Assembly: GCF_004959925.1 (NCBI RefSeq)
Contig: NZ_SPUW01000003.1
Location: forward strand, 1-64,000
DNA: 64,000 bases
Source of the DNA: Pseudooceanicola onchidii
Lineage (GTDB): Bacteria; Pseudomonadota; Alphaproteobacteria; Rhodobacterales; Rhodobacteraceae
Direction: 5' to 3'
The translations under genes and the position numbers were made by a program. Under the pieces are notes generated by a model. The model did no database searches. It was given only the letters and a program-made list of their open reading frames with translations, and had not been told where the DNA came from. Shown here piece after piece: positions 2,202 to 11,763 of the stretch; the first letter of the stretch is position 1, and each line of letters opens with the position of its first letter.

Positions 2202-3011
2202 CTAAGCAGCACTCGCCAGAAACCGCCGGGTTGCGGTCATGACGTGCCGGATGACCGCGCGTGGCCCCTCGATTGCGGTCAGCCGGGTCATCGGGACTTC
2301 AAGCGCCAGGGGAAGGTCCGGGGGCAGGGCGGCCAGATAGGCCTTCAGGTCGATGCCCCCGTCGCCCGGCGGCAGGCGTTCGGCGCGGCCGGCGTGCAGC
2401 AGATCGTCGGTCGTGTAAGGCGGGTGCACCGGCGCGTCGCACAGATGTGCAAAACGCAGCCGGTCGGGTGTCAGCCGTGACAAGGTGCTCAGGTCGCTGT
2501 CGGATCGGTCGAAATGCAGGCTGTCCGGCAGAACGCCGACGGTCGGTCCGGCTGCGGCCGCGATGCCAAGTGCCGCGTCCAGTGTTGGCACCACCGTCCA
2601 GGGGAAGAACTCCAGCACCGTGCCCAGGCCCCTGGCGTTGGCGTGTTCGGTCAGGGCCGCCAGCGTGTCGGTCAGGCGGGACAGGTCGGGGTCGTAGGGG
2701 GCGGTGATGACCTCGCGCGCGCCAAGCGTGGCCCCCGCATCGAGAAACCGGTCAAGCGCCGCGACATCGGTATGGGGGTCTATCTTGACGAACTCGATGT
2801 CGTGGACGCGCAGCCCCGTGTCCCGCAGGGCGGCGGTCGTGGCGCGCATCAAGCCGGGGTCCTCCATCAGGGGATAGCCGGGGCTGATGTCGGTCACCCG
2901 GATAAGCCGCAGGCCGACGGCGTCGAAGCCTGCCTCGGCGGCCGCTTGGATCAGGTCCGGGGGCGGCAGGTCGATGGCCGTCAGATGGGCCAGGGACAAA
3001 GACCGGGTCAT
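2202..3011 (-). CDS. Sugar phosphate isomerase/epimerase-like TIM barrel
   Basis: A 269-aa AP-endonuclease-2/xylose-isomerase-like TIM barrel. Likely metal-binding strands are visible: VHDIEFVKI (about 69-77), TVLEFFPW (about 132-139) with a Glu ligand, VLPDSLHFDR, RFAHLCDAP and LALEVPMTR with the last Glu. This fold covers 3-dehydroshikimate dehydratases, IolE/IolI and hydroxypyruvate isomerases. Its start overlaps the stop of the FAD dehydrogenase by 4 nt (ATGA), so the two are translationally coupled and under the same LysR-type operator. By context it may act on a ring product of the dehydrogenase, possibly as a second dehydratase. That role is inferred, not shown. Confidence 0.82.
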   Translation of the reverse strand: MTRSLSLAHLTAIDLPPPDLIQAAAEAGFDAVGLRLIRVTDISPGYPLMEDPGLMRATTAALRDTGLRVHDIEFVKIDPHTDVAALDRFLDAGATLGAREVITAPYDPDLSRLTDTLAALTEHANARGLGTVLEFFPWTVVPTLDAALGIAAAAGPTVGVLPDSLHFDRSDSDLSTLSRLTPDRLRFAHLCDAPVHPPYTTDDLLHAGRAERLPPGDGGIDLKAYLAALPPDLPLALEVPMTRLTAIEGPRAVIRHVMTATRRFLASAA

Positions 3012-4699
3012 GCCGCGCCCCGGGCCGCGTGGCGCCCGGCGATATAGCCGAAGGTCAGCGCGGGGCCCAAGTTGATGCCACCGGCCGGATAGTGCCCGCC
3101 CATGACGCTCGCCATATCGGTGCCGGCGGCATAGAGCCCGGGGATCGGCCGGGCGTCCTTGTCCACAACACGGGCTGCGCCGTCGGTCTGCAACCCGGCG
3201 AAGGTGCCGAAGCTGCCGGGGATGACACGGACGGCATAGAAGGGCCCGGTGGCGATCGGGGCGAGGCAGGGGTTCGGGGTGACTGTGGGATCGCCCTGCA
3301 ACCGCATGTAGGGCGTGGTGCCGCGCCCGAATTCGGGATCCTCGCCCCGGGCCGCGCCGCTGTTGAAGGTGGCGACCGTCTGCGACAGGCCCTCGGGGTC
3401 GATGCCACAGGCGCGGGCCAGTTCGGGGATCGTCGCCGCGCGCGTCAGGTAGCCAGAGGTGATCCAGCGGCTAAGGGGCATCGGCGCGGGCCGGACGATG
3501 CCAAGGCCATATCGGCGGATGAACCTGTGGTCGCAGACCAGCCAGCTTTGCACCGGCTCGTCCTGCGGCGTGGCCTCGATCATCGCCTGAACATAGTCGT
3601 GGTAGCCAAGGCCTTCGTTGCAAAAGCGGGCGCCGGTGCGGCGCACGCCGATGACGCCGGGTTTGCCGCGGTCGATGATATGCGGGAAGGTGCCTGTCGT
3701 GCCATCGGGCCAGGTGACGGACGAGACGGGGCACCATGCGCCGGGGGCTGCCAGGGTGGTGGCCTGCCGTCCCCCGGCGGTTTCGCCAAGGCGCAGGCCG
3801 TCGCCGGCCGCACTGTCCACGGCAAGGGTGCGATGATCCCGGGCCCTCGGGAAGGTCGCATCGCGCCGGGCCGGGTCGTGGGGATAGCCACCGCAGGCCA
3901 GAACCACGCCCCGCGCCGCGCGGATGCGCCGGCTGCCGTTGACCGTCGCGCTGATGATCCGGCCGTCGTGCAGTTCAAGCGCCGTGATGGCGGCGTCCGT
4001 TCGAAGATCGACCTTGGCGGCCAGCGCGGCCTGCATCAGGCGGGCGACCAATGCGTTGCCATTGCGCAGATCCATCCCGCGGCGATGACGGGCCAGCGAC
4101 CACAGGTGTCGCCCCAGGCGTGTCGCCACGTGCAGGGCGGCGCGCGGCGATCGGGTGGCCGTCATGAAGGCGCGCAGGTCCGCGCCCGCCTGGATCGTCA
4201 TGCCGATGAACGAGGTTTCGCGCATCGGTCGGCGCAGGCGGTCGATCTCGGGCCCGAGGGCGCGCCCGTCGAAGGGGGCGGCGATCACCGACCGGCCGCC
4301 GGTTCCGGCCCCGGGCAGGTGCCCGTAGGTGTCCGGAATGCCCGCGCCACATTCGAAGGTCAGCCCGGCGTCTTCCAGAAACCCGATCATCTCGGGCGCG
4401 GTCGACAGGAAGGCCTCGACAAGCTCGGCGTTGAAGGTGTTGCCCTGAACGGCCTCCAGGTACCGGCGCGGACCGCTGGTGTCTTCGTCAAAGCCATGGC
4501 GACGCGCGACAGGGTTGCAGGGGGCCCAGATCCAGCCGCCGGACCAGGCGGTCGTGCCGCCAAGGACATGGGCCTTTTCGCACAGGATCACCTTCAGCCC
4601 CTGCCGTGCGGCGGCCAGTGCGGCGGTCAGCCCGGCCGCCCCGGATCCCGCCACCAGCAGATCGCAGTCGTCGTCCCAGTCTGTCGGTTGCTCTGCCAT
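3008..4699 (-). CDS. FAD-dependent dehydrogenase, 3-ketosteroid-1-dehydrogenase/fumarate reductase family
   Basis: A 563-aa flavoprotein. The FAD Rossmann motif is AGSGAAGLTAALAAARQG (near residue 18), followed by GGTTAWSGGWIWAP, the hallmark of KstD-like members. The C-terminus GGHYPAGGINLGPALTFG has Tyr and, four residues on, Gly, matching the Tyr/Gly active-site pair of 3-ketosteroid dehydrogenases. The family introduces double bonds next to ring ketones or reduces fumarate-like acids. The start at 4699 has GGAGG before it; an ATG 39 nt upstream lacks one and would extend the protein without homology. It is divergent from the LysR gene and coupled to the TIM-barrel gene. In a hydroaromatic cluster it could desaturate a keto-cyclohexane or keto-cyclohexene acid; a steroid substrate is unlikely because no steroid genes adjoin. 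Confidence 0.85.
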   Translation of the reverse strand: MAEQPTDWDDDCDLLVAGSGAAGLTAALAAARQGLKVILCEKAHVLGGTTAWSGGWIWAPCNPVARRHGFDEDTSGPRRYLEAVQGNTFNAELVEAFLSTAPEMIGFLEDAGLTFECGAGIPDTYGHLPGAGTGGRSVIAAPFDGRALGPEIDRLRRPMRETSFIGMTIQAGADLRAFMTATRSPRAALHVATRLGRHLWSLARHRRGMDLRNGNALVARLMQAALAAKVDLRTDAAITALELHDGRIISATVNGSRRIRAARGVVLACGGYPHDPARRDATFPRARDHRTLAVDSAAGDGLRLGETAGGRQATTLAAPGAWCPVSSVTWPDGTTGTFPHIIDRGKPGVIGVRRTGARFCNEGLGYHDYVQAMIEATPQDEPVQSWLVCDHRFIRRYGLGIVRPAPMPLSRWITSGYLTRAATIPELARACGIDPEGLSQTVATFNSGAARGEDPEFGRGTTPYMRLQGDPTVTPNPCLAPIATGPFYAVRVIPGSFGTFAGLQTDGAARVVDKDARPIPGLYAAGTDMASVMGGHYPAGGINLGPALTFGYIAGRHAARGAA

Positions 4700-4743: not shown

Positions 4744-4786
4744 TAACGTCAAATGCTTGTTTGCGGCTTAGCGTAACCTGATGTTA
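4744..4786. promoter_or_regulatory. LysR operator, site 1 (lysR / FAD-dehydrogenase gap)
   Basis: TAACGTCAAAT (4744-4754), 19 bp, then TAACCTGATGTTA (4774-4786). The second element is a T-N11-A dyad typical of LTTR recognition sites. The first contains TTGACG on the minus strand, positioned as a -35 for the FAD dehydrogenase gene. The same pair with the same 19-bp spacing recurs, inverted, at 5735-5777. Confidence 0.8.
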
Positions 4787-4811
4787 AATCGATCCAGGGC
4801 AGGAGGGTGCG

Positions 4812-5720
4812 ATGCGCGAAATCACGTTAAGGCAGGTCGAAGTGATCCGGGCCGTCATGTTGCGCGGCACGATCAGCGGCGCGGCTGAATTGCTGGGGGT
4901 TTCGGCGCCCGGCATCTCCCGCCTCGTGAAGCACACGGAGGAGACCCTGGGGGTCAGGCTGTTCGAACGGCGCGCCGGATTGTTCGTGCCCTCGGTCGAG
5001 GCCGGGAAGGTCTTTGACCAGATCCGAGAGGTCTACAAGGGCGTCGAGAACCTGCAATCCGCGCTGGATTCCCTCCAGAAGGGCGAAGAGGTTCAGCTGT
5101 CCTTCGCCTCGGCGCCATCGGTCGCGCAGTTCATCGCGGCGCGCGCCCTGCGCAGCATCCGGGCGCGGTATCCTGACCTCTATATCGACCTGAACATCCT
5201 CAAGATCGAAGAGACGGCGGATTACCTGCTGCTGGAACGCGGCGAGTTCGTCATCATGAGCTCGGCCATCCACAACCCCGGCATCCAGAGCGACAAGCTG
5301 GCCCAGGGGCGTGTCGTGGCGATCCTGCCCGAAGGCCATCCGCTGGCCGATCAGGCCGTCGTGTCGGTGCATGATCTGGCGAAGGAAGACGTGGTGGGCA
5401 TCGATCCGTCCGATCCCTATGGCCGCATCATCTCGCGCCCATTCCGCGAGGCGGGCCTTGATATCCGTCACACCATGCGGGGCAGATTCGCGCAAACCAT
5501 CGTCAGCCTGGTGCGGCACGGGCTGGGCGTGGCGCTGATCGACGAATTTTCGGTGGCCGAAGTGTACCTGCCGGGCATCGTGCGCAGACCGATCGTGGAA
5601 GAGACCTTCATCGACATCTACGTGGTGACGAAGAAGGACAGGGTCCTGTCAAACTTCGCAGAATTCAGCATTCAGCAGTTCCGCAAGGAGATCATGGAGG
5701 CCGGCAGGAACTGGTCCTGA
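4812..5720 (+). CDS. LysR-family regulator of the hydroaromatic catabolic island
   Basis: A 302-aa LTTR. The N-terminal helix-turn-helix (about residues 5-62) includes TISGAAELLGVSAPGISRLVKHTEETLGVRLFER. From about 90 on is the periplasmic-binding-like effector domain (LSFASAPSVAQFIAARAL, and GLGVALIDEF at about 237-246). It sits between two divergent or forward target units, and both flanking gaps carry the same two-part operator. It most likely activates the FAD-dehydrogenase/TIM-barrel unit to its left and the tctCBA-dehydrogenase-quiC unit to its right, and represses itself. The effector is probably an intermediate such as dehydroshikimate or protocatechuate, which is inference. Confidence 0.92.
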   Translation: MREITLRQVEVIRAVMLRGTISGAAELLGVSAPGISRLVKHTEETLGVRLFERRAGLFVPSVEAGKVFDQIREVYKGVENLQSALDSLQKGEEVQLSFASAPSVAQFIAARALRSIRARYPDLYIDLNILKIEETADYLLLERGEFVIMSSAIHNPGIQSDKLAQGRVVAILPEGHPLADQAVVSVHDLAKEDVVGIDPSDPYGRIISRPFREAGLDIRHTMRGRFAQTIVSLVRHGLGVALIDEFSVAEVYLPGIVRRPIVEETFIDIYVVTKKDRVLSNFAEFSIQQFRKEIMEAGRNWS

Positions 5721-5734
5721 CCGGCGCCTCGGAA

Positions 5735-5777
5735 TAACTTCAGGTTAATGATGTGGCAATAATCGTATTTGACGTTA
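5735..5777. promoter_or_regulatory. LysR operator, site 2 (lysR / tctC gap)
   Basis: TAACTTCAGGTTA (5735-5747), 19 bp, then ATTTGACGTTA (5767-5777). This is the reverse complement of site 1 at 4744-4786 with identical spacing. The palindromic arm is nearest lysR in both sites, and the arm containing TTGACG is nearest the catabolic promoter in both, as expected for an LTTR recognition site plus activation site overlapping the -35. Confidence 0.8.
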
Positions 5778-5852: not shown

Positions 5853-6851
5853 ATGAAGCGTTTCGTACTTGGCGCCGTGTCGGCGCTTGTCCTCGGGGCA
5901 TCGGCTGCAGGCGCGGCCGATTATCCGTCCAAGGAAATTCAGGGCATCATCCAGTGGGGGGCCGGCGGGTCGACCGATACGGTGATGCGGTCCGTGACGC
6001 CCCATGCCGAAGAGGCGCTTGGCGGTTCGGTCGTGATGCAGAACATGACCGGCGGCGTCGGTGCCATTGCGTTGAACCACGTCGCAGGCCAGGCGGCCGA
6101 CGGCTACACCCTGCTGATGGGCGCGGAAAACCCGCTGCTCTACAAGGTCATGGGCCTTGGCGACAAGGACTATGGCGATTTCATCCCGGTCAGCATCCTG
6201 GCGCGCGGCACGCCCATCCTGGTGGCCAACCCCGATGCGCCGTTCGACGATTACGCAGGCATGATGGCCTACATCAAGGAAAACCCCGGTGAGTTGCGCG
6301 TGGGCGCCACCGGCCCCGGTGGTCTGCCGTCGGTCGTGACCGCGATGATCAACACCGTCGAAGGCGAGATGGACGTGATTTCCGTGCCTTACGATGGTGA
6401 CGGCCCGGCGCTGACCGCGCTGCAGGGTGGCGCCATCGACGTCATGCCTGCCGTTCTCGGCGCCGCGATCGAAGGCATCCGTGCCGGCAACATGAAGCCG
6501 CTGGCGATCTTCGATGTGGCGGCCAACGACAAGCTGCCCGAGGTTCCGCCGGTCACCGACTTCAACGACGCCTACAACACCTACCTGCCCTGGGGCCCGT
6601 TCTTCGGTGTCTTCGTGGCCAAGGGGACGCCGGATGACGTCGTCGCCAAGCTGGCGGATGCCTATGCCAAGGGGTCCGAGAATCCCGAGTTCAAGGAGCT
6701 GATGGACAACCGCGGCTTCTCGATGATGGGGATCTCCGGGGCCGAAGCCGAGGCGTTCCTGTCCAAGTGGCAGCAGGGCACCACCTGGCTGCTGCAGGAT
6801 GCAGGTCTGACCAAGGCGTCGCCCGAAGACTTCGGCATCGCCCGTCCGTAA
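5853..6851 (+). CDS. TctC/Bug-family periplasmic substrate-binding protein of a TTT transporter
   Basis: A 332-aa Bug (TctC) protein. A signal peptide (residues 1-22, MKRFVLGAVSALVLGASAAGAA) is followed by the mature start ADYPSKEI. Family motifs are GIIQWGAGGSTDTVMR near the N-terminus, and PDAPFDDYAGMMAYIKENPGELRVGATGPGG. It binds a carboxylated solute and delivers it to the TctAB membrane pair encoded next. The start at 5853 has GGGAGGAA before it; an in-frame ATG further upstream would translate through the operator half-site and lacks a signal peptide. It is the first gene of a five-gene unit, separated from tctB by a stem-loop that may set higher expression of the binding protein. The ligand is probably quinate, shikimate or a related acid, judged only by the downstream enzymes. 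Confidence 0.93.
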   Translation: MKRFVLGAVSALVLGASAAGAADYPSKEIQGIIQWGAGGSTDTVMRSVTPHAEEALGGSVVMQNMTGGVGAIALNHVAGQAADGYTLLMGAENPLLYKVMGLGDKDYGDFIPVSILARGTPILVANPDAPFDDYAGMMAYIKENPGELRVGATGPGGLPSVVTAMINTVEGEMDVISVPYDGDGPALTALQGGAIDVMPAVLGAAIEGIRAGNMKPLAIFDVAANDKLPEVPPVTDFNDAYNTYLPWGPFFGVFVAKGTPDDVVAKLADAYAKGSENPEFKELMDNRGFSMMGISGAEAEAFLSKWQQGTTWLLQDAGLTKASPEDFGIARP

Positions 6852-6960: not shown

Positions 6961-7530
6961 ATGAACATCGAAACGGATCATCACGACGGCACGTCCGACG
7001 CCACGCCCGGCGGGTACGAGAAGCAGCGGCGCCCCGGCGAACTGGTCTTCTGCGCCTTCCTGGCCCTGGCCAGCCTGTTTCTGGTCTGGGACGCCTGGGG
7101 CATCGAAAACGCCTTCGGCCCGAACGGCCTGTCGTCGCCCCGGGCCATTCCGCTGGCCACGACGCTGGTCATGGCGGTGTCGGCAATCGTGATCTTCGTC
7201 AAGGACATGCGCCTGCCCAAGGTGGCCGGTGAGACGGTTCGCAAGGACATCCTGCCTGTCACCGTCGTGATCCTTGCCCTGATGCTGGTGGCCTATGGCG
7301 TCGCGCTGAATTCGCTTGGGTTTCTGCCGACCTCGGCGCTTTTCCTGATCGTCGCGATCAAGCTGCTGGCGCGGCGCGGCTGGGCCTGGACGCTGGCCGT
7401 GTCGCTAGGCAGCCTGATCCTGATCTGGGTGATCTTCCGCATCGTCTTCACCGTGCTGATGCCGTCGGGGATCGTGCCCGAGGCGGAATTCATCCAACTG
7501 TTCCGCAACCTTCTTTCGGGGGCAAACTGA
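6961..7530 (+). CDS. TctB-family small membrane subunit of the TTT transporter
   Basis: A 189-aa inner-membrane protein with about five hydrophobic segments (around residues 24-44, 57-75, 85-106, 110-128 and 137-165), the size and topology of TctB. It is poorly conserved in sequence, as usual for this subunit. GGGGGAGGG lies before the ATG. Its stop shares one base with the ATG of tctA, so the pair is translationally coupled. Together with TctA it forms the ion-coupled permease fed by the TctC protein at 5853-6851. Confidence 0.88.
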   Translation: MNIETDHHDGTSDATPGGYEKQRRPGELVFCAFLALASLFLVWDAWGIENAFGPNGLSSPRAIPLATTLVMAVSAIVIFVKDMRLPKVAGETVRKDILPVTVVILALMLVAYGVALNSLGFLPTSALFLIVAIKLLARRGWAWTLAVSLGSLILIWVIFRIVFTVLMPSGIVPEAEFIQLFRNLLSGAN

Positions 7531-9047
7531 TGGACGCGATCCTTGCTTTCCTGACCGTCTTCACCCAGCCCGAACTGCTGTTGCTGGTCGGTCTTGGCAC
7601 CTTTGCCGGTGTCTACGTCGGGGCCATTCCCGGCCTGTCGGTGACCATGGCCGTGTCGATCCTGATCTCCTTCACCTTCTCATGGGATGTCTACCCGGCG
7701 ATTTCGCTGATGATCGGCATCTACATGGGCGGGGTCTATGGCGGGTCGCGCACGGCGATCCTTCTGAACATTCCCGGTGCGCCTTCGGCGATCGCCACGG
7801 CGCTGGACGGCTATCCGCTTGCCAAGCGCGGAGAGGCGGGGACCGCCATCGGCGTGACGACCGTGATGTCCTTCATCGGCGGGTTCATCGGCATCGGGGT
7901 GCTGGCCGTGGCCGCGCCCTTCGTGTCGGACTTCGCGCTGAAGTTCCAGCCGCGCGACTACATGCTGCTGGCGGTGCTGGGCATCCTTCTGGTCGGGTCG
8001 CTGTCAGAAGGCAGCCTGGTCAAGGGCATCTTCGCGGGCGCCCTGGGGATCGCCATCGGCGCCGTGGGCCGCGACCCGCTGACCTTCACCGAACGCTTCA
8101 CTTTCGACATCCCGCTGATGCAGGGCGGGATTTCCTTCATCGCCGTCATGATCGGCATGTTCGGCGTGTCCGAGGCGCTGATGCAGCTGCACCACGTCGA
8201 CAAGGATGCCGTCCGGCAGAAGATCAGCCGCATCGTGCCCTCGCTCGCCACGGTGAAGAAGCACCTGCCGCTGTCGATCCAGACGTCCTCGATCGGGGTG
8301 GTGATCGGCGCGCTGCCCGGCACGGGCGGGGATATCGCCGCGCTGATGGCCTATGACCACGCCAAGCGGGTGACCAAGAACCCCGAGCGTGACTTCGGTG
8401 ACGGCGCCATGGAGGGCCTTGTCGCGCCCGAGACGGCGAACAACGCCGCCGTTGGGGGCGCCTTCATTCCGATGATGACCCTTGGCATTCCCGGTGACGC
8501 GGTGACCGCGATCATGATCGGTGCGCTGTTCATCCACGGGCTGAACCCCGGGCCGATGCTGATGGTCGATCAGCCCGACATGTTCTGGTTCATCGTCGGC
8601 GCGCTGGTCATGGCCAATGTCTTCATGCTGATCTTCGGCCTGACCGGCATCAAGCTCTTTACCAAGATCGTCGAGATGCCGCGCGCCGTCCTGATCCCGT
8701 TGATCATGCTGCTGTCCATCGTCGGCGCCTATGCAGTCAACAATTCGCTGACGGATGTCTACTGGATGCTGGGCTTCGGCTTCTTCGGCTATTTCATGCG
8801 GCACTACGGCTATCCTCTCGGGCCGGTGATCCTTGGCGTGATCCTGTCGCGCCTGCTGGATGACAACTGGCGCCGCGCGATCATTTCCGAACGCGAGGAC
8901 CTGGGGCGCTTCTTCGGAGGGCTCTTCTCAAGCCCCTTGTCGACGGTGCTGTTCATCGCGGTGATCCTGATCTTCGTCAGCCAGACGCCCATCTGGACCC
9001 GCGCCAAGGCCCGTCTCTTCCCGGCACGCAAGGAGGTCAAGCAATGA
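7530..9047 (+). CDS. TctA-family large permease subunit of the TTT transporter
   Basis: A 505-aa, roughly 11-12 TM permease. Both family signature repeats are present: GAIPGLSVTMAVSILISFTF (near residues 32-51), GALPGTGGDIAALMAYDHAK (near 259-278) and GIPGDAVTAIMIGALFIHGL (near 319-338). It forms the secondary transport channel with TctB. The gene ends in an ATGA overlap with the shikimate dehydrogenase-like gene, so transport and first catabolic steps are translated as a block. The clustering argues that the imported acid is the dehydrogenase substrate or its precursor. Confidence 0.94.
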   Translation: MDAILAFLTVFTQPELLLLVGLGTFAGVYVGAIPGLSVTMAVSILISFTFSWDVYPAISLMIGIYMGGVYGGSRTAILLNIPGAPSAIATALDGYPLAKRGEAGTAIGVTTVMSFIGGFIGIGVLAVAAPFVSDFALKFQPRDYMLLAVLGILLVGSLSEGSLVKGIFAGALGIAIGAVGRDPLTFTERFTFDIPLMQGGISFIAVMIGMFGVSEALMQLHHVDKDAVRQKISRIVPSLATVKKHLPLSIQTSSIGVVIGALPGTGGDIAALMAYDHAKRVTKNPERDFGDGAMEGLVAPETANNAAVGGAFIPMMTLGIPGDAVTAIMIGALFIHGLNPGPMLMVDQPDMFWFIVGALVMANVFMLIFGLTGIKLFTKIVEMPRAVLIPLIMLLSIVGAYAVNNSLTDVYWMLGFGFFGYFMRHYGYPLGPVILGVILSRLLDDNWRRAIISEREDLGRFFGGLFSSPLSTVLFIAVILIFVSQTPIWTRAKARLFPARKEVKQ

Positions 9048-9889
9048 CCCGCCAGCTGAAACTGGGGCTGATCGGCGACAACATCGCCCGGTCCCGCGCC
9101 AACGTCCTGCACCGCCTGGCAGGTGCGCAATGCGGCCTCGAGGTCAGCTATGACCGGCTGGTGCCCAAGCTTATGGAGCGGGACTTCGACGGCGTCTTCG
9201 ATCACTGCATCGATGCGGGTTTCGACGGCATCAACATCACCTATCCGTACAAGGAACGTGCCGCTGCACGGGTGCAGGTCGACGATCCGCTGGTGCGGGC
9301 CATCGGGGCCGTGAACACGGTGATCTTCCACGCCGACGGGCCCAAGGGGTTCAACACCGACCATTCGGGGTTCATGGCGGGCTACCGCGCCGTCCGGGCT
9401 GAAAAGTCGACCGGACCGGTGCTGATGATCGGCACCGGCGGGGTGGGCAAGGCGGTGGCCTTCGGGTTGGCCGGGCTGGGCACGCGCTGTCTTCGGCTGG
9501 TCGACCGCGACCTCGCCAAGGCGGAAAAGCTGGCCGAGGCGCTTCAGGCCGTGGCGCCCGACATGGATATCTCGATCTGGATCAGCGCCGAAAAGGCGGC
9601 CGAGGGCAGCGCAGGCCTGATCAACTGCACCCCCGTCGGCATGGTCGGCCACGAGGGCACGCCGCTGGATCCGGCGGCGATGGCGGGGGCCGAGTGGGCC
9701 TTCGACGCCGTCTACACCCCGGTCGACACGCAGTTCCTGCAGGATGCGGGGGCCGCAGGGCTGTCGATCATCTCGGGGTGGGAGCTATTTTTTCATCAAG
9801 GCGTGCATGCGTGGTCGCTGTTCTCCGGCACCGGGGTGAACGAAGGCGCGCTTCGCCACAGCTTGCAACAAGAGGTCGAAACCGCATGA
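9044..9889 (+). CDS. Shikimate/quinate dehydrogenase-like (AroE family), catabolic type
   Basis: A 281-aa AroE-superfamily protein. The catalytic Lys (K70 in NITYPYKERA) and Asp (D106 in FNTDHSGF) are kept, and the NAD(P) loop is GTGGVGKA (about 129-136). In biosynthetic AroE the substrate carboxylate is held by two serines of an SxS motif; here it reads SRA (S17, A19), so the second Ser is lost, as in catabolic or specialised paralogues. It would oxidise shikimate to 3-dehydroshikimate or quinate to 3-dehydroquinate. It overlaps tctA by 4 nt and the downstream quiC-type gene by 4 nt (ATGA both times). Which acid it prefers cannot be told from sequence. Confidence 0.9.
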   Translation: MTRQLKLGLIGDNIARSRANVLHRLAGAQCGLEVSYDRLVPKLMERDFDGVFDHCIDAGFDGINITYPYKERAAARVQVDDPLVRAIGAVNTVIFHADGPKGFNTDHSGFMAGYRAVRAEKSTGPVLMIGTGGVGKAVAFGLAGLGTRCLRLVDRDLAKAEKLAEALQAVAPDMDISIWISAEKAAEGSAGLINCTPVGMVGHEGTPLDPAAMAGAEWAFDAVYTPVDTQFLQDAGAAGLSIISGWELFFHQGVHAWSLFSGTGVNEGALRHSLQQEVETA

Positions 9890-11763
9890 AAACCGCAATC
9901 GCCACAGTCTCGATCTCGGGGACGTTGACGGAAAAACTGGATGCCATCGCCGAGGCCGGGTTCGACGGGATCGAGATCTTTGAACAGGATTTCATCACCG
10001 ACACCGGCAGCGCGCGCGACGTGGGCAACCGGATCCGCGACAAGGGGCTTGAGGTCAGCCTGTTCCAACCCTTCCGCGACTTTGAAGGACTGCCGGATCC
10101 GTACCGTGCCAAGGCCTTCGACCGGGCTGAGCGCAAGTTCGACCTGATGCAGCAACTGGGTGCGGAGCTGGTTCTTGTCTGTTCCTCGGTCCACGCCAAG
10201 GCTCTGGGCGGCATCGACCGCGCGGCCGATGATCTGAGAGAGCTGGGCGAGCGTGCCGCGGCGCGCGGGCTTCGCATCGGATACGAGGCGCTGGCCTGGG
10301 GGCGCTATGTCAACGATCATCGCGACGCCTGGGAAATCGTGCGCCGGGCCGATCACCCGAACGTCGGCGTGATCCTCGACAGCTTCCATACGCTTGGCCG
10401 GGGCCTGGACCCCGAAACCATCCGCCGCATTCCCGGCGACCGGATCTTCTTTGTCCAGCTGGCCGATGCCCCGAAGATCGACATGGACCTGCTGTACTGG
10501 TCGCGTCACTTCCGGAACATGCCGGGCGAAGGCGACCTGCCGGTGACCGATTTCATGCGGGCGGTGATGGCTGCGGGCTATACCGGGCCGGTCAGCCTGG
10601 AAATCTTCAACGACCAGTTCCGGGGCGGCAGCGCCCGGGCCGTGGCGCGTGACGGCTATCGGTCGCTGATCGCGCTGATGGACGATGTGCGCCGCGCCGA
10701 ACCGGCCGTAGGCATCGACCTGCCGGCAATCCCGTCCCGCCAGTCGATCGAGGGCACCGCCTTTGTCGAATTCGCCACGCGCGGGGCCGAGGGGGATGCG
10801 CTCAAGGCGCAGCTGACCGCGCTCGGCTTTGCCGAAACCGGGCGGCACGTGTCCAAGGCGGTCTCGCTTTGGCAACAGGGCGACATCCGGTTCGTCGTGA
10901 ACGAGGAAACCTCCGATTTCGCCGGGTCGGCCTATAACATGCACGGCACCTCGGTCTGCGATGTGGGGCTCATGGTGTCCTCGGCGGCTGACACTATGGC
11001 CCGTGCGGCGGCTCTGGGCTCAAAGCCCTTCGCGCAGGCGCCCAGTGTCGGTCAGCTGGATATCCCCGCCATCCGGGGTCTGGGGGGCAGCGTGCTGCAT
11101 TTCCTCGACGACAGCCACGCGGACGTCTGGCAGGCCGAATTCGGCGCGACGCGCGCAGGCCCCGCCGGTGCGGGCCTGACCACGGTCGATCACGTCGCGC
11201 AGACCATGACCTATGACGAAATGCTCAGCTGGTCGCTGTTCTACGGGTCGCTGTTCGGCATGACCAAGGCGCCGATGGTGGACGTTGTCGATCCCGACGG
11301 GCTGGTCCGGTCACAGGCGCTTGGTGCCGATACCGGGGCGTTCCGGATCACCCTGAACGGCGCCGAAACGCACCGCACGCTGGCCGGGTCCTTCCTGGCC
11401 GACAGTTTCGGCGCGCCGGTGCAGCATATTGCGCTGACCACCGACGACATCTTCGCCACCGCCGATGCGCTGGCCGAAAAGGGGTTCGCCGCCCTGCCGA
11501 TCCCCGACAACTACTATGACGACCTGGTATCGCGGTTCGACCTGCCGGCCGAGGACCTGGCGCGCATGAAACAGCACCAGATCCTGTATGACGTCGACGA
11601 GGACGGGGCCTTCTACCAGCTTTACAGCCGCCCTGCGCCGAACGGTTTCTTCTTCGAGATCGTTCAGCGGACCGGCTATCAGGGCTACGGCGCGCCGAAC
11701 GCCCCGTTCCGCATCGCCGCGCAGAAGCGGCTGGGCCGGACAAAGGGCATCCCCGTCGAATAG
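9886..11763 (+). CDS. quiC: Fused 3-dehydroshikimate dehydratase / HPPD-like protein (QuiC type)
   Basis: A 625-aa two-domain protein. Residues 1 to about 285 are a sugar-isomerase-type TIM barrel with metal-ligand strands YEALAWGR, VILDSFHTLG, FFVQLADAP and VSLEIFND, as in dehydroshikimate dehydratases that make protocatechuate. Residues about 295-625 are a 4-hydroxyphenylpyruvate-dioxygenase-like vicinal-oxygen-chelate domain; the metal triad is visible as TTVDHVAQ, VQHIALTTDD and FFFEIVQRTGYQGYG. This fusion is known in bacteria as the quinate/shikimate enzyme QuiC, where the dehydratase domain is active and the HPPD-like domain has a less clear role. The start at 9886 overlaps the previous stop. 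It is the last gene of the LysR-controlled unit, and its product protocatechuate would need beta-ketoadipate genes located elsewhere. Confidence 0.9.
   Translation: MKTAIATVSISGTLTEKLDAIAEAGFDGIEIFEQDFITDTGSARDVGNRIRDKGLEVSLFQPFRDFEGLPDPYRAKAFDRAERKFDLMQQLGAELVLVCSSVHAKALGGIDRAADDLRELGERAAARGLRIGYEALAWGRYVNDHRDAWEIVRRADHPNVGVILDSFHTLGRGLDPETIRRIPGDRIFFVQLADAPKIDMDLLYWSRHFRNMPGEGDLPVTDFMRAVMAAGYTGPVSLEIFNDQFRGGSARAVARDGYRSLIALMDDVRRAEPAVGIDLPAIPSRQSIEGTAFVEFATRGAEGDALKAQLTALGFAETGRHVSKAVSLWQQGDIRFVVNEETSDFAGSAYNMHGTSVCDVGLMVSSAADTMARAAALGSKPFAQAPSVGQLDIPAIRGLGGSVLHFLDDSHADVWQAEFGATRAGPAGAGLTTVDHVAQTMTYDEMLSWSLFYGSLFGMTKAPMVDVVDPDGLVRSQALGADTGAFRITLNGAETHRTLAGSFLADSFGAPVQHIALTTDDIFATADALAEKGFAALPIPDNYYDDLVSRFDLPAEDLARMKQHQILYDVDEDGAFYQLYSRPAPNGFFFEIVQRTGYQGYGAPNAPFRIAAQKRLGRTKGIPVE

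Follow-up and report, generated by a model that had tools for sequence, protein, structure and literature searches.

A gene for a LysR-type regulator in Pseudooceanicola onchidii (Rhodobacteraceae) has one copy of the same two-part sequence on each side, in mirror orientation, and the question raised by this locus is whether these sites serve the regulator gene that they enclose or the catabolic genes that lie beyond them. The locus lies in a 64,000-nucleotide stretch (positions 1 to 64,000 of contig NZ_SPUW01000003.1, assembly GCF_004959925.1), which is referred to throughout as the window. In our estimate, the probability is about 0.9 that the 43-bp unit is a LysR-type operator, composed of a recognition half (RBS) and an activation half (ABS) laid over the -35 box of the outward promoter, through which one regulator would switch two operons. 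The two sites would very probably turn on two neighboring gene sets for the catabolism of shikimate-like, plant-derived acids. The operator reading rests on the sequence of the sites, their conservation, their co-occurrence with the regulator, the position of -35 and -10 signals in relatives, and the movement of the sites with their target genes; binding, the inducer, the direction of regulation, and autoregulation are what we infer from these observations.

Genes of the Cluster

The regulator gene, lysR (4812..5720, + strand), encodes a protein of 302 amino acids with an N-terminal HTH_1 domain (47.5 bits) and a C-terminal LysR_substrate domain (107.9 bits), both above the Pfam cut-off; its closest matches among solved structures are remote (CysB, E 2e-14), and Pseudooceanicola nitratireducens has a regulator 91% identical to it. 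Divergent from it lies a gene for an FAD-dependent oxidoreductase of the 3-ketosteroid delta-1-dehydrogenase-like type (3008..4699, - strand), which scores 803.8 bits against the NCBIfam PRK06134 subfamily model, above its cut-off, matches the model for 4-oxocyclohex-2-ene-1-carboxylate 5-dehydrogenase below cut-off, and has 3-oxosteroid 1-dehydrogenase (7p18) as its nearest solved chain. In tandem with it is a gene for a xylose-isomerase-like TIM barrel (2202..3011, - strand; PF01261). This protein is weakly related to the dehydratase domain of QuiC (E 1.1e-8 against the QuiC model, below cut-off), and its nearest solved chains are 2g0w (Lmo2234; E 6.7e-8) and 5hmq (E 2.4e-7). When it is aligned with that domain, E, D, H, and E are kept at positions that we take to be metal-binding, and an H replaces a Q.

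On the other side, all on the + strand, are genes for a tripartite tricarboxylate (TTT) transporter, namely the receptor gene tctC (5853..6851; PF03401), tctB (6961..7530; PF07331), and tctA (7530..9047; PF01970), followed by a shikimate dehydrogenase homologue of the AroE family (9044..9889) and a quiC-like gene for a two-domain 3-dehydroshikimate dehydratase (9886..11763). The AroE homologue is above cut-off for PF08501 and below the cut-offs of the NCBIfam models, and it contains the NxTxPxK and NTDxxG motifs; the quiC-like product matches the QuiC model over residues 1-615 (E 1e-192, 642 bits, with a curated cut-off of 1200). Because the NCBIfam scores of both proteins lie below the curated cut-offs, their names are given by family and not by equivalog. 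The FAD gene start at 4699 (-) and the tctC start at 5853 (+) are the most likely starts as judged from open reading frames and sequence. Other contigs of the same genome hold two more AroE-family loci, and the genome encodes a protocatechuate 3,4-dioxygenase beta subunit that scores above cut-off; a route from shikimate through protocatechuate to ketoadipate is therefore plausible in this organism.

The Two-Part Motif

The initial annotation had described a mirrored two-part motif with equal spacing on both sides of lysR, and exact copies (0 mismatches over 43 bp) do lie at 4744-4786 (+) and 5735-5777 (-), each with an 11-mer and a 13-mer arm set 19 bp apart. The comparative logo indicates that the outer arm is better taken as a 13-mer, (A/G)TATTTGACGTTA, which gives a revised unit of 13 bp, a 17-bp spacer, and 13 bp, with arm centers 30 bp apart; read outward, the unit is approximately TAACATSAKGTTA - 17 bp - RTATTTGACGTTA. 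The T-N11-A dyad, TAAC-N5-GTTA, adjoins lysR on both sides, as had been claimed. The left RBS (4774..4786, - strand) lies 25 bp ahead of the lysR start and the right RBS (5735..5747, + strand) 14 bp past the TGA stop codon. The left ABS (4744..4756, - strand) is assigned from the exact motif, the consensus of relatives, and the hexamer position, and the right ABS (5765..5777, + strand) from the exact motif, the logo, the -10 spacing in relatives, and the hexamer position. Within these, TTGACG at 4747-4752 and at 5769-5774 is assigned by hexamer position as the predicted -35 box of the FAD and tctC promoters, respectively. Dyad positions 1-4 and 10-12 are invariant or nearly so across 43 left-side and 61 right-side sites in relatives, which had been preselected by a motif sharing those letters.

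No match to the 43-bp motif with up to 3 mismatches occurred in 100 dinucleotide shuffles. The motif had been offered as a searchable consensus, and it serves as one: a looser form with the dyad center left free, searched at up to 3 mismatches over the 3,671,680-bp genome, finds only the two places in the window, and its reversed control finds none in the whole 3.67-Mb genome. The bare dyad TAAC-N5-GTTA occurs at 8 places in the genome versus 10 for its reversed control, and specificity thus sits in the two-part unit.

Identical arms and identical spacing within one window could also reflect recent duplication of a single intergenic segment, with no selection for two operators. The two copies have different spacer sequences, a divergence that already contradicts such an origin; furthermore, the arms are retained in 49 related loci with both sites, and the two-part unit recurs before other genes. 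We consider duplication scarcely credible, and treat the copies below as two candidate operators.

Distribution of Sites Among Related Loci

Of 130 loci with the same regulator, the best 80 formed the comparative set, a choice biased toward close kin and including one truncated locus (L058). A scan with the 17-bp spacer over the 1,112,460 bp of these loci gave 128 matches at 16 or more of 21 positions, the threshold also used for the flank counts below, and 124 at 18 or more. Over the same sequence, the reversed motif gave 1 match at the lower threshold and 0 at the higher, and 20 letter-shuffled motifs gave between 0 and 8 at the lower and 0 each at the higher. With other spacers, at 18 or more of 21 positions, there was no match at 14, 15, 16, or 19 bp and one each at 18 and 20 bp. 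The flanks of lysR hold 121 of the 128 matches; the other seven (in L027, L037, L053, L055, L064, L072, and L078) lie away from lysR and precede a tctC-like gene (47% identity), an MHS symporter gene, or an ABC permease gene.

Among the 80 loci, a two-part match lies upstream of lysR in 56, downstream in 65, on both sides in 49, and on neither in 8, and its presence follows that of the target genes. A downstream site occurs in 65 of the 66 loci in which tctC, quiC, or aroE lies in the 700 bp after lysR (the exception being L057) and in none of the 14 without one of these genes there. An upstream site occurs in 45 of 46 loci with a divergent FAD, TIM-barrel, or quiC gene, the exception (L078) having a weak match of 15/21, and in 11 of the 34 without one. 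Five of these 11 have another divergent gene, namely an MHS symporter (L045), an ABC permease (L057), or an aroE-like gene (L072, L073, and L074), and L006 has a site without explanation. The remaining five (L010, L026, L049, L050, and L063) have a perfect 8/8 dyad and an ABS decayed to 8-10 of 13 positions; a dyad kept perfect while the activation arm decays in the absence of a divergent homologue suggests separate roles for the two halves. The initial annotation had made its reading depend on the motif being present at orthologous clusters, and a site is found in all 42 loci in which the FAD gene is immediately divergent and in all 60 in which tctC is immediately downstream. A scan of each locus found no site at the FAD homologues that lie away from lysR in L042, L046, L059, L065, L076, L078, and L079.

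The loci are related, as the tree shows, and these counts are thus not independent. A tree was built from 82 regulators, namely those of the window, of two distant rows, and of all 80 loci except L058. Mapped on it, the distribution of flank sites (both, downstream, upstream, or none) needs 12 changes, which indicates that targets have been gained and lost repeatedly while the motif was retained. The co-occurrence of sites and targets supports the proposal that the FAD/TIM pair and the TTT-transporter/AroE/quiC unit would form one regulon.

Sites Distant From the Regulator Gene

Eighteen genomes, picked for unusual gene orders, were re-searched at up to 3 mismatches, and sites were found in 17 of them at 30 places in total (reversed control, 2), some being lysR-flank sites already counted. 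At 28 of the 30 places, a quiC, aroE, tctC, FAD, MHS symporter, or ABC permease gene lies directly outward, with the symporter, permease, and second AroE queries taken from three of these places themselves (L127, L126, and L131); the two others are a decayed site of L026 (L147) and L150. For the symporter, the shikimate transporter is the second-best NCBIfam model, with both best and second-best models below cut-off. A search of 19 further genomes at up to 2 mismatches gave a match in 18 and none for the reversed control, and the off-flank places there precede genes for AroE (L165, the same place as L100), quiC (L161), the symporter (L173), and, in genome G212, the ABC permease (L148). Among seven genomes picked because quiC was missing from the locus, six carry quiC elsewhere, with a site at one. 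The idea that quiC always stands behind an operator was rejected, since five of the six genomes with a detached quiC have no site within the fetched stretch.

The genome of L049 holds lysR beside quiC on one contig and an FAD/tctC pair of sites on another. In the latter (L135/L146), two perfect sites stand back to back between divergent FAD and tctC genes with no intervening lysR, their starts 66 bp apart. A second such pair (L098; 20/21 and 17/21, starts 71 bp apart) lies between divergent tctC and TIM-barrel genes, again with no intervening lysR.

These arrangements bear on the proposal that both sites serve lysR itself, the left one being autoregulatory and the right one terminator-like or a roadblock, with no role at catabolic promoters. 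Such a role would fit the position of the sites at both ends of lysR, the five loci without a divergent homologue that keep a perfect dyad near the lysR start, and the fact that in 36 of 65 loci, and in five of eight distant Rhizobiaceae homologues, lysR stops on the first TAA of the right dyad. It is at odds with the absence of downstream sites from all 14 loci lacking a catabolic homologue there, and with the sites that precede quiC, aroE, tctC, FAD, and transporter genes at places remote from lysR, among them the L049 pair between divergent FAD and tctC; we consider it very unlikely. A terminator role for the right site was examined separately and rejected, there being no terminator-like site on the + strand between 4650 and 5900. 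Because the L049 sites sit between FAD and tctC while lysR is on another contig, the sites are best read as belonging to the promoters of the outward targets and not to lysR. The description of the two operators as brackets of the regulator gene thus stands as far as their flanking position is concerned, but not in the sense that they belong to that gene, since they travel with the target promoters.

Promoter Architecture and the Ends of the Regulator Gene

Promoter spacing was assessed in two sets: 43 left-side sites, of which 42 face FAD and one (L065) faces quiC, and 61 right-side sites, of which 60 face tctC and one (L027) faces aroE. A -10 signal was defined as a hexamer whose second letter is A and whose sixth is T. 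At a distance of 17 bp from TTGACG, 20 of the 43 left-side and 28 of the 61 right-side sites have such a signal; at 18 bp the numbers are 9 and 14, respectively, and at each of the remaining spacers from 5 to 39 bp, the signal occurs in at most 5 sites of either set. The peak at 17 bp places the -35 box inside the ABS, in agreement with the claim that, on either side of lysR, the arm containing TTGACG is located at the promoter of the outward gene, and puts the RBS center at about -63 and the ABS center at about -33, on the assumption of a start about 7 bp past a correctly assigned -10. In the window itself, the left promoter offers AACAAC and the right one GCATCA or CATCAC as candidate -10 signals, all of them weak, and a sigma-70 scan gave no hit. 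Weak -10 signals are as expected for a putative activator-dependent promoter and are not proof of one.

The left dyad lies 15-30 bp before the lysR start in 46 of 56 related loci (range 5-126 bp), and the lysR promoter therefore probably overlaps the operator, which makes autoregulation plausible; the regulator may repress its own gene through the left RBS. The upstream dyad is often lost where lysR has no divergent target. A test for autoregulation through a lone dyad gave a mixed result: besides the five loci with a perfect dyad and no divergent homologue, there are 24 that lack a two-part upstream site, and these hold at best 4-6 of 8 dyad positions near lysR, the level of most random 90-nt windows. 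At the other end of the gene, the lysR TAA stop doubles as the first half-site of the operator of the next operon in the 36 loci already mentioned (e.g., L006 at 7925), and one triplet thus both ends the regulator gene and opens the regulator's own predicted binding site.

Co-occurrence of Motif and Regulator

LysR-type regulators have T-N11-A dyads in common, and binding by the LysR of the window is a prediction; a different regulator might thus bind the motif and merely co-occur with lysR. Across 198 genomes of the family, this LysR was found at E 1e-40 in 16, and the strict motif (up to 1 mismatch) in 13, all of them within the 16, as opposed to 0 of the 182 genomes without it. The three genomes with the regulator but without the strict motif are G012 (51% identity), G114 (45%), and G175 (67%, with only a downstream site of 5 mismatches). 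Rearranged genomes also hold the motif together with the regulator, though often far apart, and in view of this association we judge a second regulator most improbable and retain the product of lysR as the predicted ligand of both sites.

Plasmid-Borne and Distant Homologues

Three Rhodobacterales plasmid copies of the cluster (from Alloyangia, Sagittula, and Thioclava) were examined from among 88 plasmid records with a match. All three show the canonical gene order (FAD/TIM, lysR, tct, aroE) and have both sites, at 19 to 21 of 21 positions. Genes of the tannase/feruloyl-esterase family lie near the plasmid cluster (L151, 15088-16731; L154, 2722-3423), and possibly link it to plant esters of quinate or shikimate. 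A separate observation concerns L063, from a record titled Enemella evansiae TN21-6 (Actinomycetota), which is a contig with a Rhodobacteraceae-type cluster; its site coordinates are identical to those of G002, a genome grouped with the family of the window. It seems that either the public name is mistaken or the assembly is a mixture.

Eight plasmid homologues from Rhizobiaceae share 42-46% identity with the window regulator. Three of these loci are annotated: in L152 the gene after lysR is of the QuiC type and lies in a pca region, and in L153 and L176 it encodes shikimate dehydrogenase. On pSymB of Sinorhizobium meliloti, a regulator homologue of 42% identity adjoins quiC. The dyad after lysR is kept at 7-8 of 8 positions in six of the eight loci and at 6 of 8 in the other two; the lysR stop is its first TAA in L152, L153, L174, L178, and L179. 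A GTATTTG or GTATTCG arm follows about 31 bp after the dyad start in seven of the eight, the stretch of L176 ending too early. The spacer is 18 bp instead of 17 (by eye, and by script for L174 and L178 only). In those two loci the activation arm reads GTATTTGCCGTTA or GTATTTGCAGTTA, as do some Paracoccus sites. A scan of the distant homologues (42-51% identity) with the spacer fixed at 17 bp reached at most 14 of 21 positions, but with dyad and arm present at 18 bp, it is the scan that fails and not the operator. Since dyad and arm follow lysR in Rhizobiaceae as well, a predicted two-part operator after lysR predates the Rhodobacterales set.

Proposed Mechanism and Function

In the general LysR model, a tetramer sits on the RBS in the absence of inducer; with inducer present, the tetramer changes its contact with the ABS and brings in RNA polymerase. 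Applied to this locus, the regulator would hold a strong recognition dyad (TAAC-N5-GTTA) together with an ABS (RTATTTGACGTTA) 30 bp, or about three helical turns, away, within which TTGACG would act as the -35 box of the outward promoter. The predicted inducer is most likely shikimate, 3-dehydroshikimate, or a related alicyclic acid; induced LysR would switch on the right operon (tctCBA, aroE, and quiC) and the left operon (the FAD dehydrogenase/TIM-barrel pair), and the left RBS, at the likely lysR promoter, may allow autorepression.

The relatives of the FAD enzyme include dehydrogenases that introduce a double bond into a six-membered ring beside a ketone. Given this kinship and the QuiC-like TIM barrel, a related cyclohexane acid may be the substrate of the left operon. 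More speculatively, and at less than even odds in our judgment, the regulon may be an unrecognized alicyclic-acid branch, in which the FAD and TIM-barrel enzymes would turn a relative of shikimate or quinate (such as a reduced or isomeric cyclohexane polyol acid) into protocatechuate or another aromatic compound and would partly replace QuiC. Paracoccus aurantiacus (L030), with an FAD/TIM/aroE/tct cluster, has no QuiC match genome-wide at E 1e-60.

The 43-bp consensus, with its very low background, picks out the regulon in Rhodobacterales as well as in some Rhizobiales, even where its genes lie at a distance from the regulator. It would place in shikimate-type metabolism the orphan FAD/TIM pair, a TTT transporter, an MHS symporter, and an amino-acid-type ABC permease. 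The two-output promoter pair could be used for an inducible system or a biosensor in alphaproteobacteria.

Comparison With Known Systems

In the textbook LysR layout of the BenM, CatM, CatR, and CbnR type, the RBS lies near -65 and the ABS near -35. The present system is similar in its HTH_1 and LysR_substrate domains, its T-N11-A dyad, a second site over the -35 box, and a divergent target, with RBS and ABS at about -63 and -33; it differs in having a complete operator pair at each end of the regulator gene and in its shikimate-type targets. QuiR of Listeria is a shikimate-responsive LysR-type regulator that controls 3-dehydroshikimate dehydratase and shikimate dehydrogenase genes. The likeness to it, which is one of description, lies in the regulator type and these two gene families; no QuiR-named chain is among the 60 of 76 PDB matches listed for the window LysR.

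ShiR and QsuR are known shikimate-related LysR regulators, and QsuR of Corynebacterium glutamicum is described as a chorismate-dependent LysR-type activator of shikimate/quinate utilization genes, its gene lying antiparallel to qsuA with three operator sites (PMC11258901). The present regulator resembles it, again by description, as a LysR-type regulator with shikimate-type genes. The back-to-back sites of L135/L146 and L098 recall ThnR, one LysR-type activator that is reported to serve two close divergent promoters, although its pathway differs in being that of tetralin (PMC4834489). Comparative genomics of LysR regulons for aromatic pathways is established (PMC6449761; PMC5343134), and a search of openly licensed PMC text found no report of this regulon, motif, or gene set under one switch. 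By position, the operators precede quiC, aroE, tctC, and MHS symporter genes, the predicted targets. The mechanism is that of the textbook, and what sets this shikimate-type LysR regulon apart is that it includes the orphan FAD dehydrogenase/TIM-barrel pair.
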